NCBI GenBank assembly: GCA_036504445.1
Contig: DASXVE010000023.1
Location: 1 to 64,000, forward strand
Direction: 5' to 3'
Origin: Candidatus Aquicultor sp.
GTDB taxonomy: Bacteria; Actinomycetota; Aquicultoria; Aquicultorales; Aquicultoraceae
DNA: 64,000 nt
Within the stretch, counting starts at the first letter, position 1. Every line of letters begins with the position of its first letter. Both the position numbers and the translations under genes were made by a program. Below are positions 452 through 29,445 of the stretch, piece by piece. The notes under the pieces are model-generated. The model ran no database searches and was not told the origin of the DNA. It saw nothing but the letters and a program-made list of their open reading frames with translations.

Positions 452-1336
452 TTACTGCGCCGGCTTGCCGATAACTTCAATTTGTTCCTTCGTTAGCCTG
501 GCGGCAATCCGTTCTCTAATAAGCCGCTCGACCCGGTCTTGTTCACTTGATGCCGTACGGACTGCGATCCTGAACACCATCGCGTTATCTCTAAATTCTT
601 CGATACCGGTAACCTGAGGAAGCTCTTGAAGGACGTCTTTGACTGTAGGGTCATCAGCCAGCTTGGTCATCTCGTCGCACACCGTGTCGAGTACCCGTTG
701 GGGGTTTTGCGTAGTAGGCACGCCGAACTCAACCACGGCGCGTGCCCAACCACGCGAATGATTTATTACTACCGTAACTTGGCTGTTAGGTATAATGTGC
801 AGGCTTCCCTGAAAATCACGAAGCAGGGTAGTGCGTAGGCTCAGCTGCTCGACGGTACCCTTATCGCTGCCGATTTGTACGAGATCGCCGACGCTGTACT
901 GGTTTTCAAACAGGATAAAAAACCCCGAGAGAAAATCTTTAATCAGGCTTTGCGCCGCGAGACCGACTGCGACGCCGAGAACCCCGGCACCCGCAAGGAG
1001 GGCTGTGATCTCAACCTTTGTCGTGGATTGAAGGATGACGAGCACGGCGAGAAAGAATATCGTGAATTTCGCGAGTGCATCAAGCACGTTGGCCAATGTG
1101 AGCGCGCGTTGCTTGGCTTGATCCTCGGATATAAACGGGTTTTTGCTAATGAGGGACACCGAACGGTTAATGGCAATACTCAGCAGCCTATATATGATAG
1201 CGCTTGCCAGCAGAACCAGAATCACAATAAGGGCATTATCTCTCAGCCAATTAACAGTCTGCTCGAGGGTCGTGCCTGCTTTTACCGGCAGATTACTCTG
1301 CATTAAGCTATTCACCGCTCCACCTGTCTGTGCCAT
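452..1336 (-). CDS. MscS-family mechanosensitive channel
   Basis: A 294-residue protein with a hydrophobic N-terminal helix (about 35-55), a second segment (about 88-110), then the Gly/Ala-rich pore helix containing LLAGAGVLGVAVGLAAQSL. This is followed by the MscS beta domain (FENQYSVGDLVQIG) and a C-terminal alpha/beta domain. It is a short YkuT/YbdG-like channel; the family opens under membrane tension and releases solutes during hypo-osmotic shock. The start ATG has a weak AAGGAA upstream on the minus strand. It is convergent with the small membrane protein gene and divergent from the ncRNA/rRNA-like locus. Family assignment is firm; no further specificity can be read. Confidence 0.92.
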   Translation of the reverse strand: MAQTGGAVNSLMQSNLPVKAGTTLEQTVNWLRDNALIVILVLLASAIIYRLLSIAINRSVSLISKNPFISEDQAKQRALTLANVLDALAKFTIFFLAVLVILQSTTKVEITALLAGAGVLGVAVGLAAQSLIKDFLSGFFILFENQYSVGDLVQIGSDKGTVEQLSLRTTLLRDFQGSLHIIPNSQVTVVINHSRGWARAVVEFGVPTTQNPQRVLDTVCDEMTKLADDPTVKDVLQELPQVTGIEEFRDNAMVFRIAVRTASSEQDRVERLIRERIAARLTKEQIEVIGKPAQ

Positions 1337-1951: not shown

Positions 1952-1983
1952 CGTTCTTTGAAAAATGAACAGATTGGCCGGAC
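1952..1983 (+). promoter_or_regulatory. rRNA leader: boxA-like antitermination site and 16S processing half-stem
   Basis: CGTTCTTTGAAAAATGAACA (1952-1971) resembles the boxA/leader sequence in front of Gram-positive rrn operons, and a related CTTGTTCATTGAAAAC recurs in the spacer at 3985-4000. Immediately after it, TGGCCGGAC (1975-1983) is perfectly complementary to GTCCGGCCA at 3768-3776 beyond the 16S-like RNA. This gives the 9-bp stem expected for RNase III-type processing. I see no convincing -35/-10 pair upstream; TATATAA near 1934-1940 is a possible -10. Confidence 0.6.
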
Positions 1984-2045: not shown

Positions 2046-3690
2046 TAATCTGCGGGTCTGGTCCCGGCCCAGGACGAACGCTGGCGGCATGCACTTGCCC
2101 CGACAAGTCGAGCGGACTGTTCCTACAATTTCTGTAACCGTAGCACGTTTGCTATGGATTAGGAAAAGGACGGTTACGCGGCGAACGGCGGAGTAACACG
2201 TAGGTGACCTGCCTCAAAGACCGGAATAACCTCACCCCGGGAGGCCCTAAAAAGGTCACTTGGGATGAGCTAATGCCGTATAAGCTCACACTGCTCATGC
2301 GGCGTGAGAAAAGGTAGCCCTTAATCAAGGCTTCCGCTTTGAGATGAGCCTGCGCCCCATCAGGCAGTTGGTGGTGTAAAAGACTACCAAGCCGATGACG
2401 GGTAGCTGGCCCGAGAGGGTGGTCAGCCCGACCGGAACTGAGACAAGGCCCGGGCCCGAAAGGGCTAGCGGGGTGGAATCTATCGCAATGCGCGAAAGCG
2501 TGACGATGCAATGCCGCGTGAAGGAAGAAAGCAGGTGAAAACACCTGTCGTAAACTCCAGTCGGTGGGGAGTAAGCGTGGCCGGTTAAGAGCCGGACCAC
2601 GTGAAAGTACCTGCCGGTAAGAGCGCCGACAAACTGCGTGCCAGCAGTCGCGGTCAAACGTAGGGCGCAAGCGTTGTCCGGAATTACTGGGCGTAAAGGG
2701 TACGTAGGCGGCTTGGGCGTATCGGCTGTGAAAGCCCTCCGCAAAACGGAGGAAGGGCAGCCGAGATTACTCGGCTAGAGCCCGGCGGAAGGAAGTGGAA
2801 CTTCCGATGTAGCAGTAAAATGCGTTGATATCGGAAAGAACCCCAAACGGCGAAGGCAGCTTCCTATACCGTGGCTGACGCTAAAGTACGAAAGCCAGGG
2901 GAGCGATGCGGTTTGGTACCCGCGTAGTCCTGGCTGTAAAAGATGGGCACTAGCTCCCGACCCTCAGGAAGGCCGGAGGCGAAGCTAACGCATTAAGTGC
3001 CCCGCCTGGGGAGTACGGCCGCAAGGCTGAAAACCAAGGGACTTGTGGAAACCTGCACAATCGGCGGCGAGTGTGGTTTAATGCGATTTCGAGCGCAGAA
3101 TCTTACCAAGGTCGCCCGTGCGTGAAAGCCGGTGGAAACACTGGCATGCCGTTCAAACTGTGGGCAACCCACGGTGACGCGGAAACTCGCACAGGCAGGC
3201 ATGAATGGTCACCGTCAGCCCGTGCCGTGAGGCGTGAGGTCAAATCCTCGTAACGGGCGCAACCCCTTACCCCATGTTGCCATCGGACACACGCCGGGCA
3301 CTCATAGGGGACTGCCCGCGTTCGAAGTGGGAGGAAGGCGGGGACGACGGCAGATCCGTATGTGCTGAGTACCTTGGGCTACACACACGCGACAGTGATC
3401 GGGACAAAGAGGGCCGATCCCGCGAGGGGGAGGAAATCTCAAAAAACCGACCGAGGTACGGATTGCAGTCTGGAACCCGACTGCATGAAGATGAAGCCGA
3501 TAGTAATCGCAGATCATCAAGCTGCGGTGAATACGTTCTCAGGTTTTCTTCATATTGCCGGCCGCATCCGCCATAGAAGAAGCAGCTGAAGCTACGCGGC
3601 CCAACCGGACCCCAGCGGGCCTCATTTTTGAGGTTTACTGGGACCCGGAGGACGGTAGCGAGGCTGCTCCGACGAGGCGGTCGTAGGATG
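2046..3690 (+). rRNA. 16S-like rRNA with altered functional centres
   Basis: Homology to 16S rRNA is unmistakable along its length (AGGACGAACGCTGGCGGCAT near 2071, GGAATTACTGGGCGTAAAGG near 2680, GAAGCTAACGCATTAAGTG near 2982), at about 1645 nt. It departs from consensus at sites that are nearly invariant in life. The 27F, 515F, 806R and 926R priming sites all carry changes. The 790 loop is UUUGGUAC (2912-2919). The C1400/A1408 strand and the A1492/A1493 strand (3647-3655) are rewritten, the h45 tetraloop is CGAC (3670-3673), and CCUCC is absent at the 3' end. Helices are kept by paired changes: h1 2054-2058/2066-2070, pseudoknot 2062-2064/3038-3040, h18 2629/2648, h24 2908-2911/2920-2923, h28 3049-3055/3540-3546, h31 3082-3085/3094-3097. 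Numbering follows E. coli, aligned by eye from memory. I infer a paralogous, structure-conserved RNA rather than the cell's working 16S. Confidence 0.9.
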
Positions 3691-4021
3691 GGCATACTGC
3701 CCGTACCGAGAGGTGTGGGCGTAAACTTGGAGCTCAGGCTCTTCTTTTAAGATGCCAAAAGCTCGATGTCCGGCCAGGAGTTCCGGCTCCGGGTTCCCCC
3801 GGGGGCAACCCCCAGGCAACACCCGTCCGGACGATCTCCAAGGTTTGCACATAAACCTTGGGGCTGAAGGTTCAAGGCTAAAAGTCCAATGGTGAAGATG
3901 CCGATTTTCATTGTTGGGTGGGGCCGAGCAGCCCAACCAGCCTTGAGCCTTGAGCCCGCACGGCGCGTAAACCGTGCGTCTCACCTTGTTCATTGAAAAC
4001 AATATAGCGTGCATTAGAAAG
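3691..4021 (+). other. 16S-23S spacer without tRNA; second boxA-like site and processing stems
   Basis: No tRNA can be folded here. The spacer carries GTCCGGCCA (3768-3776), pairing with the leader. It has a stem of GGTTCAAGGCT with AGCCTTGAGCC (about 3869-3955), a GCACGG/CCGTGC hairpin (about 3959-3979), and a boxA-like CTTGTTCATTGAAAAC (3985-4000). ATAGCGTGCA (4004-4013) is perfectly complementary to TGCACGCTAT at 7271-7280 beyond the 23S-like RNA, the expected 23S processing stem. Keeping these parts argues that the locus is still transcribed and processed as one precursor. Confidence 0.7.
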
Positions 4022-7261
<3,240 letters not shown>

Positions 7262-7311
7262 TTAACCTAGTGCACGCTATTTCTTTTGATAATTCTATAA
7301 ATATATAACCC

Positions 7312-7346
7312 AAAAAGCTGTTCACTGATTGCGAACAGCTTTTTTA
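7312..7346 (+). terminator. intrinsic terminator of the rRNA-like operon
   Basis: AGCTGTTC (7316-7323) pairs with GAACAGCT (7333-7340) across a 9-base loop, preceded by A5 and followed by T-rich sequence. It closes the operon directly after the 23S processing stem, leaving no room for a 5S gene. The remaining bases to 7557 show nothing I recognise. Confidence 0.85.
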
Positions 7347-7570
7347 TTCTTATCCTAACGGGTGCTTGTGTTTAGCGCATGGTTTCCATACACTATACGT
7401 TAACCGAACGTTAGGATCGCCTTGAAATACAGAGAAGCACTGATCCCGCACTATATATAAAGACCTACAAGTATAAACAGCGGAATCACCTAACTTGGTT
7501 GCTTTATCCTGCTAATTTAGATAAAATTAAGACGAGAAGGCGAAAGGTTTTTTGATTGGAGGCTGCTTTC

Positions 7571-8149
7571 GTGTTCGCAAAATTGATTCGTAAATTAAAA
7601 GCAATGAACAAGAAGACGTTAATCATTTTAAGTGTGGTGGTGGTGGTCGCAGTTGTAGGTGGCGGTTACTTAGTATCAAATGCCTCCGACAAATCATCAA
7701 CGGAACAAACACAGAAACAAGTTGACATCGCCAACGCAGCTCTAGCCGGTTGGCGTGTTAAAAATGATGCTCGCCTTGAGGTCAACAAGGCAAAAGTCGC
7801 TGAATTTAAGCAGAAACTCATGAATTATTACGATCCGAGCACCGGTGCGTTGGCCGAACAACAGCGGCTTATTAACGCATTGATTGCTGCCGATGAGGCA
7901 GCCGCTAAGGATGATAATTCAGGTGAGGCAATAAAAAGCTTCGATATTTCCAGCGTAGCCATTAAAGCGCTCGATATTAAAAGCGAAACGGCAAAATTGA
8001 CTGCGGATGTTGAGTATTACATTAAGTATGAAACCCAAAACCAAAGCTACAGCACATTTGGCAAGAATCGCATAAATTGGGAGCTTAAGAAAGAGGGCAA
8101 GAGCTGGAAGATCACTAAAGAAGCACTAGTCCCTGGTGATAATTCCTAA
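7571..8149 (+). CDS. membrane-anchored exported protein of unknown function
   Basis: GTG 7571 has GGAGG at 7558-7562 with 8-base spacing, so I prefer it to a codon 15 bases upstream inside that site. The 192-residue product has a basic N-terminus, one transmembrane segment (about residues 16-35, ILSVVVVVAVVGGGYLV) and a hydrophilic Lys/Ala-rich domain ending in a beta-rich part (VEYYIKYETQNQSY, INWELKKEGKSWKI). That tail resembles exported NTF2-like or lumazine-binding-like domains. It probably sits outside the membrane on an N-terminal anchor. No function can be named. Confidence 0.65.
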   Translation: MFAKLIRKLKAMNKKTLIILSVVVVVAVVGGGYLVSNASDKSSTEQTQKQVDIANAALAGWRVKNDARLEVNKAKVAEFKQKLMNYYDPSTGALAEQQRLINALIAADEAAAKDDNSGEAIKSFDISSVAIKALDIKSETAKLTADVEYYIKYETQNQSYSTFGKNRINWELKKEGKSWKITKEALVPGDNS

Positions 8150-27373: not shown

Positions 27374-27751
27374 TAATATTCTCCAAATAGGGAGAACATA
27401 GCTGTAATGCTAAAGGCTATGAAGGGGAGTAGTAAGCTTTCTTACTGTAGGAGCGAGCCGGGGATGGTGCGAAGCCGGTACAAGACGAAAGCCGAATGTC
27501 GCCCCGGAGCCGGCCACCTGAACAGCAATAGGGTTGATAATGATAAGGTTTATAACCATAGCGCTTAGTAGTTTGGCCCGTGATATCCGCGTTACGGATA
27601 CAAGTGCAGCACGCCCGTAAACCAAGAGATAATGAAATAGCTTGGCGAAGAAACGCCCGGTTACGTAAGAGTCGGTTTGGCGCGCTGAAGTTGGGTGGTA
27701 CCGCGTGAGAATCCTCTCGTCCCATATGGGGCTGAGAGGTTTTTATTTTTT
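27374..27751 (+). promoter_or_regulatory. T-box riboswitch leader of ilvD operon, probable valine specifier
   Basis: The T-box sequence AAGTTGGGTGGTACCGCG (27688-27705) is present in full. Downstream, CCTCTC/GAGAGG with an inner CCC/GGG stem and T-run (27713-27750) forms the terminator that competes with the antiterminator. Stem I upstream has the usual AGCGAGCCGGGGATGGTGCG distal part (near 27452-27471). In the specifier loop GAATGTCGCCCCGGAG, the likely codon is GTC 27498-27500 (Val); reading one base off is possible. Uncharged tRNA would switch on ilvD and the genes behind it. Confidence 0.92.
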
Positions 27752-27780: not shown

Positions 27781-29445
27781 ATGTCAACGAGAAGTGATGA
27801 GGTTAAAAAAGGGGTTATTCGGGCACCGCATCGGTCGCTTCTGCGAGCAACCGGTCTTACGGATGAGGAGATATCGCGGCCGTTTATCGGTATCGCCAAC
27901 TCCGCAAACGATGTAATTCCCGGGCACATACACCTTGATAAGATAGCCGAGGCCGTAAAAGCGGGAATTCGTCTCGCGGGCGGCACCCCGTTCGAGTTCT
28001 CAACCATCGGGGTGTGCGACGGTATTGCGATGAATCATCCGGGCATGAAGTATTCGCTTCCAAGCCGCGAGATTATCGCCGATTCCGTTGAGCTTGTCGT
28101 TGAAGCCCATCGCTTCGATGCGCTCGTTCTTATTCCAAGCTGCGACAAAGTAACGCCCGGTATGCTGATGGCGGCCGCCAGGGTTAATATCCCAACGGTT
28201 GTTGTAAGCGGCGGGCCGATGCTTGCCGGTAAATACGATGGGAAGGACATCGACCTGATCAGCGTCTTCGAGGCGGTCGGTGCGGTGTCGTCGGGCGCGA
28301 TGACCGAAGAAGAGCTTGCCGAGTTTGAAGCTTGCGCCTGCCCGACATGCGGTTCGTGCGCCGGTATGTTCACGGCTAATACTATGAACTGCCTGACCGA
28401 GGCCATCGGTTTGGGTCTTCCTGGTAACGGGACGATTCCCGCCCCGTACTCTGAAAGAATCAGGCTTGCCAAGCATGCCGGCATGGCGGTTATGAACCTG
28501 CTTGCAAAAAATATTACGCCGGATAAGATACTTACGAACGATGCGTTTCGCAACGCGCTCACTGTTGACATGGCGCTCGGCGGCTCGACGAACACTATGC
28601 TGCACCTGGCGGCGATCGCTCACGAAACCGGTTTGGAATTCGATTTGAAACTGGCGGATAAGATCAGCCAGAGCACGCCGAACCTGTGCAAGATAAGCCC
28701 TGCGGGCACACAGCATATCGAAGATCTGTACCGCGCAGGCGGCATCATGGCGGTTATGGCCGAGCTGAATAAGGGCGGCTATTTGAAGACGAACACCGTG
28801 ACGGCAACAGGGAAAACCCTTGCCGAGAATCTCGAGGGCGTTAGCGTTCTCGACAGCAATATTGTTCGCCCGCTCGACAATCCGTACTCAGCGACGGGTG
28901 GCCTTGCCATACTCTTCGGAAACCTGGCGCAAGACGGCGCTGTGGTCAAGCAGGCGGCGGTCAAAGAAAGCATGCTCGTTCATTCGGGGCCGGCTCGCGT
29001 ATTTGATGGTGAAGCTGAAGCGACCGACGCGATAATCGGTGGAAAGATAAAAGCCGGTGACGTTATCGTTATCCGATATGAAGGGCCGAAAGGCGGCCCC
29101 GGTATGCGTGAAATGTTAACGCCGACTTCCGCGCTCGCCGGTATGGGCCTGGATGATAAAGTGGCGCTTATCACCGACGGGCGTTTCTCGGGCGGCACAC
29201 GAGGTGCTGCGATAGGGCACGTCTCGCCGGAGGCACAAGAACGTGGCCCGATTGCCGCAGTGCAAGAAGGCGATACTATCGAGATCGATATTCCCGGCAG
29301 GAAGCTTAACGTAAAGCTCTCAGACGAGAAGATCCAGGAGAGGTTGAAGAGCTGGACAACTCCTGCACCGCGGGTTACAAAAGGATATCTCGCGCTTTAC
29401 GCGCGGATGGTTTCATCCGCCGCAAAAGGTGCTGTTATAGAGTAA
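27781..29445 (+). CDS. ilvD: dihydroxy-acid dehydratase
   Basis: 554 residues, full length. Iron-sulfur Cys lie in [12 protein letters not shown] and [35 protein letters not shown] near the C-terminus is the other family mark. It forms 2-oxoisovalerate and 2-oxo-3-methylvalerate for Val, Leu and Ile. GGAGG precedes ATG 27781. First gene behind the T-box, followed by ilvB after 51 bases. Confidence 0.97.

Follow-up and report, generated by a model that had tools for sequence, protein, structure and literature searches.

What kind of RNA carries a neck helix that has been rewritten on both of its strands? In the stretch of DNA analysed here, 64,000 nucleotides from genome G000 (the window), helix 28 of a 16S-like gene departs from its usual sequence on both sides, and the initial annotation implied an ordinary 16S rRNA with a single altered helix. 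rRNA counts as the most constrained molecule of the cell, and its extra copies are expected to be either alike or decaying. Judged by its sequence, the locus is neither of these, but a complete second 16S-23S operon (in which no 5S was found), an old paralogue that occupies one chromosomal place across several genera. Throughout, 'odd' denotes the divergent paralogous 16S and 23S copies and 'normal' the ordinary rRNA.

Helix 28 and its homologues

The strands aaacctg (3049-3055, forward strand; E. coli 927-933) and caggttt (3540-3546, forward strand; E. coli 1384-1390), placed by alignment to E. coli and to the Rfam SSU model, had been read correctly, and all seven pairs between them are Watson-Crick, for which the probability with seven random letters is 6e-5. 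In order, these pairs are A-U, A-U, A-U, C-G, C-G, U-A and G-C, where E. coli and all four normal relatives compared have G-U, G-C, G-C, C-G, C-G, C-G and G-C. The initial annotation counted four compensatory pairs in a row. Three of them, 928, 929 and 932, are indeed changed on both sides, but 927 is altered on one side only, from G-U to A-U, and the four changed pairs are not consecutive. As a refutation it had named a lack of homologues with coordinated changes; four homologues, from other genera and a second family, do show such changes. Pairs 928, 929 and 932 read G-C, G-U and U-G in G009, A-U, A-U and U-A in G001, G-C, A-U and U-G in G005, and A-U, G-C and then one mismatch, U-U, in G011. 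The lower part of the helix is altered as well, with position 923 deleted and 924-1392 unpaired in all five odd copies.

Compensation in the neck helix thus stands, with the homologues in agreement. As a picture, an ordinary 16S in which a single helix has changed fails in both scale and kind: the entire 16S-23S operon is a paralogue, deeply diverged, beside normal rRNA in the same genome, and many universally conserved sites are altered in addition to helix 28, whose double changes belong to a set of 72 pairs in the window 16S that differ from the normal copies on both sides and still pair.

Organization of the odd operon

The 16S-like RNA (para-SSU) occupies 2046-3729 and the 23S-like RNA (para-LSU) 4026-7258, both on the forward strand. 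As evidenced by cmscan both are full-length homologues far above the cut-off of 50 bits, the former matching positions 1-1533 of RF00177 with 1012.2 bits and the latter positions 1-2925 of RF02541 with 2109.5 bits; complete normal 16S genes of relatives reach 1546-1590 bits with RF00177. No 5S was detected in the window at E<=1, nor at gathering score after the odd 23S of G009 and G005, and only G001 has a 5S in this position.

A boxA-like leader element, GTTCTTTGAAAAATGA, was located at 1953-1968 (forward strand). A boxA-like string is present in the leaders of three of the five odd copies (window, G001 and G005) and of the normal operon of G007, and was not found in G009 or G011. A further boxA-like element, TGTTCATTGAAAAC, precedes the 23S at 3987-4000 (forward strand), with TGTTCTTTAAAAAC, TGCTCTTTAACAAC and TGCTCTTTAAAAAC as its counterparts in G009, G001 and G005; it is recognizable by eye in all four copies, and a scripted pattern flagged three of the four, missing G009. 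The 23S is flanked by a processing-type stem, both strands of which were read on the forward strand: the 5' part, ATAGCGTGCAT (4004-4014), pairs with its complement, GTGCACGCTAT (7270-7280). The stem is kept in all four odd copies of the family, with a G-U wobble in G005. At 7312-7349 (forward strand) follows a terminator-like hairpin with a T-run, identified by eye, and T-run hairpins of differing sequence were likewise seen by eye in all four copies, after the 23S in the window, G009 and G005 and after the 5S in G001. A rule-based terminator scan of 7200-7560 listed none, as the loop of 9 exceeds the 3-8 admitted by the rule, and a promoter consensus scan produced one hit that was not above chance. 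BoxA, 23S processing stem and terminator, in part assigned by eye, are nevertheless those of an rrn transcription unit.

Comparison of the four family copies also revealed a hairpin of 50 bases in the 16S-23S spacer (3782-3831, forward strand). All four carry it nearly unchanged; three pair types occur at one pair, and two pairs are each broken in a single cell. In 15 genomes searched, its core occurs in the four family genomes only, plus one match with a single mismatch on contig C62 of G011. We rejected the latter as a chance match, since the place reads as coding (peptidyl-tRNA hydrolase-like, by eye); there is no rRNA nearby and no blast match to the operon.

Distribution, genomic setting and phylogeny

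The odd operon is also present in G001, G009 and G005, which represent other genera of the window's family (f1), and a partial, rearranged 16S-like odd copy is found in G011 of the sister family f2. An exact 22-base pattern, searched in the genomes of 84,980 species, returned three records that match G011, G001 and G009 (G005 was not returned, and G000 itself may be excluded from that collection by design), and a 33-base pattern, allowing 3 mismatches at most, occurred in 5 of 396 Actinomycetota genomes, precisely the five with an odd copy. As far as seen, the odd operon appears to be confined to one order of Actinomycetota. The five genomes belong to five different genera and are all fragmentary. 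Within f1, the odd copy is found in 4 of 11 genomes and in none of the other 7, some of which end contigs at the place.

An MscS-type mechanosensitive channel gene (452-1336, reverse strand) lies upstream; G009 and G005 likewise have one next to their odd operon. Downstream is an ARC6-like IMS-domain gene (7556-8149, forward strand), whose Pfam score is just under the cut-off. In G000, G005 and G009 the odd operon sits between these two genes; the ARC6-like gene gave no hit in G001. Further downstream, G000, G001 and G005 share genes for DUF5714, DUF5658, CoA-binding and polysaccharide deacetylase proteins together with ligA, in conserved order. In G005 two contigs share the operon, with one flank on each. 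The downstream genes are present without the odd operon in G006, and in G004, whose contig starts some 260 bases ahead of the first downstream match, the operon may be absent or only cut off.

A 16S tree of 14 rows, with the normal-type copy of G011 cut to its first 1250 bases and G005 (two pieces) left out, unites the odd copies in one clade (100/100) and places the f2 odd copy outside those of f1 (100/100), and the normal 16S of f1 and f2 are likewise sisters (97/100). The path from the window to G011 is 0.58, about four times the normal family-to-family path of 0.134. The tree does not place the odd clade either inside or outside the normal one.

Note that G011 contains additional pieces (L074, 6366-6648 on the reverse strand; L071, 723-2643 on the reverse and 304-580 on the forward strand): a second 16S-like 3' end, which over 164 columns has 83% identity to the first, and, near the first copy, a 23S-like piece in opposite orientation. 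They may reflect two copies, a rearrangement or a misassembly.

Normal rRNA in the same genomes

On contig C10 of G000 we found the 3' end of a normal 23S, 92.9-94.6% identical to the normal copies of G004, G005 and G006, and a normal 5S that is 91.4-96.6% identical to theirs. Directly before this 23S end (L120, 3700-4001) lies a run of N, where the rest of the normal operon is expected. G005 has a full normal 23S (C137, 2829 bits) besides the odd one (C28, 1966 bits), and G001 has the start of a normal 16S (195 bits, at a contig end) besides its odd operon. In the assembly of G000, the odd 16S is the only 16S match. A 3-kb contig of the same assembly, C21 (L107, 1-3087), was considered as its normal 23S and rejected, being only 78% identical to the normal copies of the family, and is probably foreign in the bin.

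Duplicated ribosomal protein genes were considered as a sign of a second ribosome and rejected: the three proteins searched, uS12, uS7 and uL2, are encoded by one gene each in every f1 genome searched. G011, a 92% complete assembly, gave no match for any of the three, probably owing to missing contigs. Two uS7 genes (C122 and C27) were seen in G013, of another family of the class, possibly due to contamination (3%).

Divergence and conservation of structure

Identity over the E. coli columns is 65.6-67.0% between the 16S of the window and four normal 16S, and 61.6% between it and that of E. coli. For the window 23S, comparison with three normal copies from the class gave 67.7-69.9%. The 16S comparisons were made with four of the eight complete normal 16S (L002, L004, L005 and L008); the normal-type 16S of G011, whose 3' end looks chimeric, was excluded from the residue and pair comparisons, and the C5 fragment of that genome was used in stated comparisons only.

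The odd copies of the family are 81-87% identical to one another. As a neutral yardstick we used fourfold-degenerate sites in four neighbouring genes: G000 shares 32-49% of them with G005 and 21-42% with G001. For the odd rRNAs the corresponding identities are 81.2-85.6% and 82.2-84.5%. The synonymous sites are near saturation, and a neutral relic of this age would hardly be recognizable.

The Rfam SSU structure, read off E. coli, placed 455 pairs, of which 433 are canonical in E. coli itself. Canonical pairs number 363/445 in the window, 374/442 in G009, 377/446 in G001, 353/399 in G011 and 185/216 in the 3' part available for G005, overall 82-88% in the five odd copies, against 34-44% in a control with the partners slid by 1-3 positions. 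Where both partners differ from the normal majority, the pair is still canonical in 72 of 91 cases in the window, 74 of 91 in G009, 76 of 93 in G001, 38 of 45 in G005 and 64 of 73 in G011. The same holds between odd copies, with pairing retained in 24 of 30 double changes between the window and G009 and in 45 of 49 between G001 and G011. Both pseudoknots take part in this: in the central pseudoknot, U-A at 20-915 has become C-G in each of the four copies that have a letter at both positions, and in the h18 pseudoknot the window and G001 carry A-U instead of G-C at 506-525. In 23S, counted over only the last 1165 E. coli bases, the odd copies keep 260-277 of 286-314 pairs (88-91%, slid control 33-50%), with 277/314 in the window (slid control 33-46%). 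In the h44-h45 region, where helix 44 and the 3' end of 16S are hard to align, the fold of the window sequence surpasses those of all 200 shuffles (z = -5.8). Losses occur as well: 31 pairs present in the normal copies are broken in all of the window, G009 and G001, and 37 pairs of the window 16S are broken by a change on a single side, somewhat more than in its relatives. Canonical pairs, pseudoknots and compensatory changes are those of a folded rRNA under structural selection, and the odd operon displays neither the neutral rate nor the freely breaking pairs of a pseudogene.

Replaced and retained functional residues

Residues of the decoding site are replaced. The strand corresponding to E. 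coli 1391-1409 has given way to a different stretch that is largely common to the odd copies; in the alignment of the window, 1391-1408 fall on 3547-3564 (forward strand), where the odd sequence is near CATATAGCCGG and the normal copies have ACACACCGCCC. The opposite strand, E. coli 1488-1498, is aligned to 3680-3690 (forward strand), with 1492 at 3684, 1493 at 3685 and 1498 at 3690, and as GTCGTAACAAGG is missing there, the tract of A1492 and A1493 is absent. The GTAACAAGG tract bearing these two residues is gone in all odd copies that contain the region. A1408 is a G in 4 of 5 copies, C1400 is replaced in 5 of 5 and A1492 in the 4 of 4 with the region; G530 is kept. The anti-SD motif CCTCC at the 3' end of 16S, present in the four normal copies compared, is absent in the window, G009, G001 and G005.

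In 23S, G2251, G2253, A2451, A2453, U2504, C2573, G2583, U2584 and G2661 are replaced and G2061 is deleted in all four copies, G2252 and A2660 are replaced in three of four, and G2553 of the A-loop is kept in only one. U2506 and C2063 are unchanged in 4/4 and A2602 in 3/4. The replaced residues are those that bind the codon-anticodon helix and the CCA end of tRNA, or that activate factors. With the exception of G530 and, in three of four copies, A2602, the features expected of a translating rRNA, namely the decoding residues, the anti-SD, the P-loop, A2451 and the sarcin-ricin loop, are thus not in place.

Change is also concentrated at such sites. At positions that we take to be functional, the window differs in 47/113 cases in 16S, against 189/868 at other invariant positions (p = 1.1e-5), and in 95/308 against 331/1618 in 23S (p = 9e-5), where the excess becomes borderline with the L1 stalk set aside (p = 0.052). 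The 530 loop is mostly kept, with 2 of 18 positions changed in the window; at 16 of these 18 invariant positions the odd copies agree with one another, none of them derived. The PTC ring is largely alike among the odd copies, for example in 17 of 19 columns at 2437-2455 that agree in 4/4. This likeness, the retained 530 loop and the presence of G530, U2506 and, in three of four copies, A2602 could mean that an altered activity has been kept.

Nature of the odd operon

The combination of lost message-reading and amino-acid-joining letters with a retained fold suggests a ribosome-derived RNA with a different job. That the odd operon is a structured and selected paralogue we regard as very probable. 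An old paralogue has been kept in place under selection for RNA structure, with rrn-type signals by which its RNA would be transcribed and processed like rRNA. The products may fold into 30S- and 50S-like bodies with ordinary ribosomal proteins, of which uS12, uS7 and uL2 are encoded once each. Such a particle would not be expected to translate ordinary messages, as the replaced residues serve decoding, tRNA CCA binding, peptidyl transfer and GTPase activation, and we consider the odd rRNAs to be probably non-translating. On balance, an old paralogue kept in place, which is transcribed and folded into a non-translating, ribosome-like RNA, seems the likeliest description. By a small preference we also lean towards a duplication of the rRNA operon in the ancestor of this Actinomycetota order that gave rise to a 'para-ribosome', a particle with ribosomal fold, pseudoknots and processing, in which new, shared decoding and PTC letters would serve something other than ordinary protein synthesis. 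Speculatively, the particle itself might do the work, for instance as a scaffold or by retaining ribosomal proteins, or factors associated with the ribosome, when growth is slow; a protein- or factor-holding role is a tentative suggestion that is rather unlikely to be correct as it stands.

The main rival is a second, specialised translating ribosome, a 70S that reads a subset of messages (leaderless ones, for example) with altered decoding and peptidyl-transfer chemistry. Both subunits being kept together with rrn signals fits this, as do the agreement of the 530 loop (16/18), the accord of the PTC segments among odd copies and the unchanged U2506, C2063 (both 4/4) and A2602 (3/4). It is nevertheless unlikely in view of the replacement of the A1492/A1493 tract, the anti-SD, G2251, G2253, A2451 and G2661, the retention of G2553 in only one of four copies, and the lack of a second uS12, uS7 or uL2 gene in the f1 genomes searched. 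Distinctly less probable is a pseudogene operon that decays without function. Universal sites have been lost, broken pairs in the window copy (37 single-side breaks) are somewhat more numerous than in relatives, and sequence search finds the odd copy in only 4/11 family genomes; at the scale of the family, however, decay is contradicted by an identity of 81-87% between the family copies against near-saturated synonymous sites, by pair retention and compensatory change in every pair of copies compared, by replaced residues that are common to the copies, by the nearly invariant spacer hairpin and by the preserved terminator-like hairpins and processing stem.

That the operon entered the bins as contamination, misassembly or foreign DNA is very improbable, although the genomes are all fragmentary and probably metagenome-assembled, the G011 copies are found at the ends of contigs and seem rearranged, and G000 does carry the foreign-looking 23S contig C21. 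The operon is located within contigs of 79, 37 and 25 kb (divided between two in G005), where its flanking genes recur, and the five genomes represent five genera whose tree mirrors the order of the families, the f2 copy outside f1 at 100/100. Almost no weight is left to the idea that the odd rRNA is a fast-evolving ordinary 16S and the sole rRNA of the organism. It draws on the odd copy being the only 16S match in the G000 assembly, and it is refuted for G000, G005 and G001, the first of which holds a family-type normal 23S 3' end and 5S in the same assembly. Moreover, 21 of 41 window genes have SD-like motifs no more than 25 nt from their earliest possible start, compared to 139 of 2000 random 25-mers, and the odd 3' end could not match these motifs. 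A transfer from a lineage of other origin may have preceded the radiation of the order. A viral origin was considered and rejected: the pattern YCTGCACAATCGGCGGCG matched 14 viral contigs, none of which has a blast match to the operon, so that these are chance hits. In phage and plasmid collections only ordinary rRNA-type matches were found among those listed, with about 70% identity; one of 34 records, outside the 20 listed, is at 90-95%.

Relation to known systems

Mitochondrial ribosomes demonstrate that strongly altered rRNAs can keep the ribosomal core fold. They also keep the decoding and peptidyl-transfer residues and are the sole known ribosome of their compartment, in contrast to the odd operon, a paralogue beside a normal one. 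rRNA pseudogenes resemble the odd operon in that essential residues are lost in an extra copy, but here the retained pairs, the compensatory changes and the conservation from genus to genus contradict neutral decay.

Closer in layout is the intragenomic heterogeneity described for Scytonema hyalinum, Haloarcula, Thermobispora and Thermomonospora (PMC5658200), where, in that account, two complete kinds of operon share one genome, secondary structure is kept and one kind is conserved among relatives. The 16S kinds of S. hyalinum differ by 7.3-9.0%, stated there to be the highest value on record at the time in the absence of indels; the same paper cites Thermoanaerobacter, where insertions bring the difference to 11.6%. 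For 23S, a within-genome diversity of 0.01-4.04% is given for 113 of 184 multi-gene species (PMC2672173). In the present case odd and normal copies are about 34% apart in 16S and 30-32% apart in 23S, with replacements among the active-site residues. The heterogeneous ribosomes described in PMC11926189 concern an extra protein copy, not rRNA. OLE, ROOL and GOLLD are, like the odd RNAs, large structured bacterial RNAs, and large bacterial ncRNAs of this type form homo-oligomeric complexes (PMC12286853); as described in that source they are not presented as derived from a 16S-23S operon. Among titles and abstracts of the open-licence literature we found no comparable divergent, paralogous or pseudogene rRNA operon or ribosome-like RNA. 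If our reading is correct, a 16S-23S paralogue that persists in several genera with other letters at its universal catalytic and decoding positions would amount to a natural experiment on the possible fates of a ribosome, and would show which parts of rRNA serve folding and assembly alone. As a warning, 16S surveys and metagenome bins may take the odd copy for a new lineage.

Minor observations

Group I introns are present in the normal 23S of G007 (L075, 9578-9880), G005 (L121, 6920-7243) and G004 (L123, 4240-4547), with one in helix 69 in G007; the odd 23S copies yielded none at gathering score. In G006 a second, lower-scoring 5S (73.7 bits; C30, L122, 6352-6467) follows the normal 5S at a distance of about 1 kb. 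Further along the window, a T-box leader (27410-27727, forward strand, 103.6 bits) lies ahead of the open reading frame at 27781-29445.
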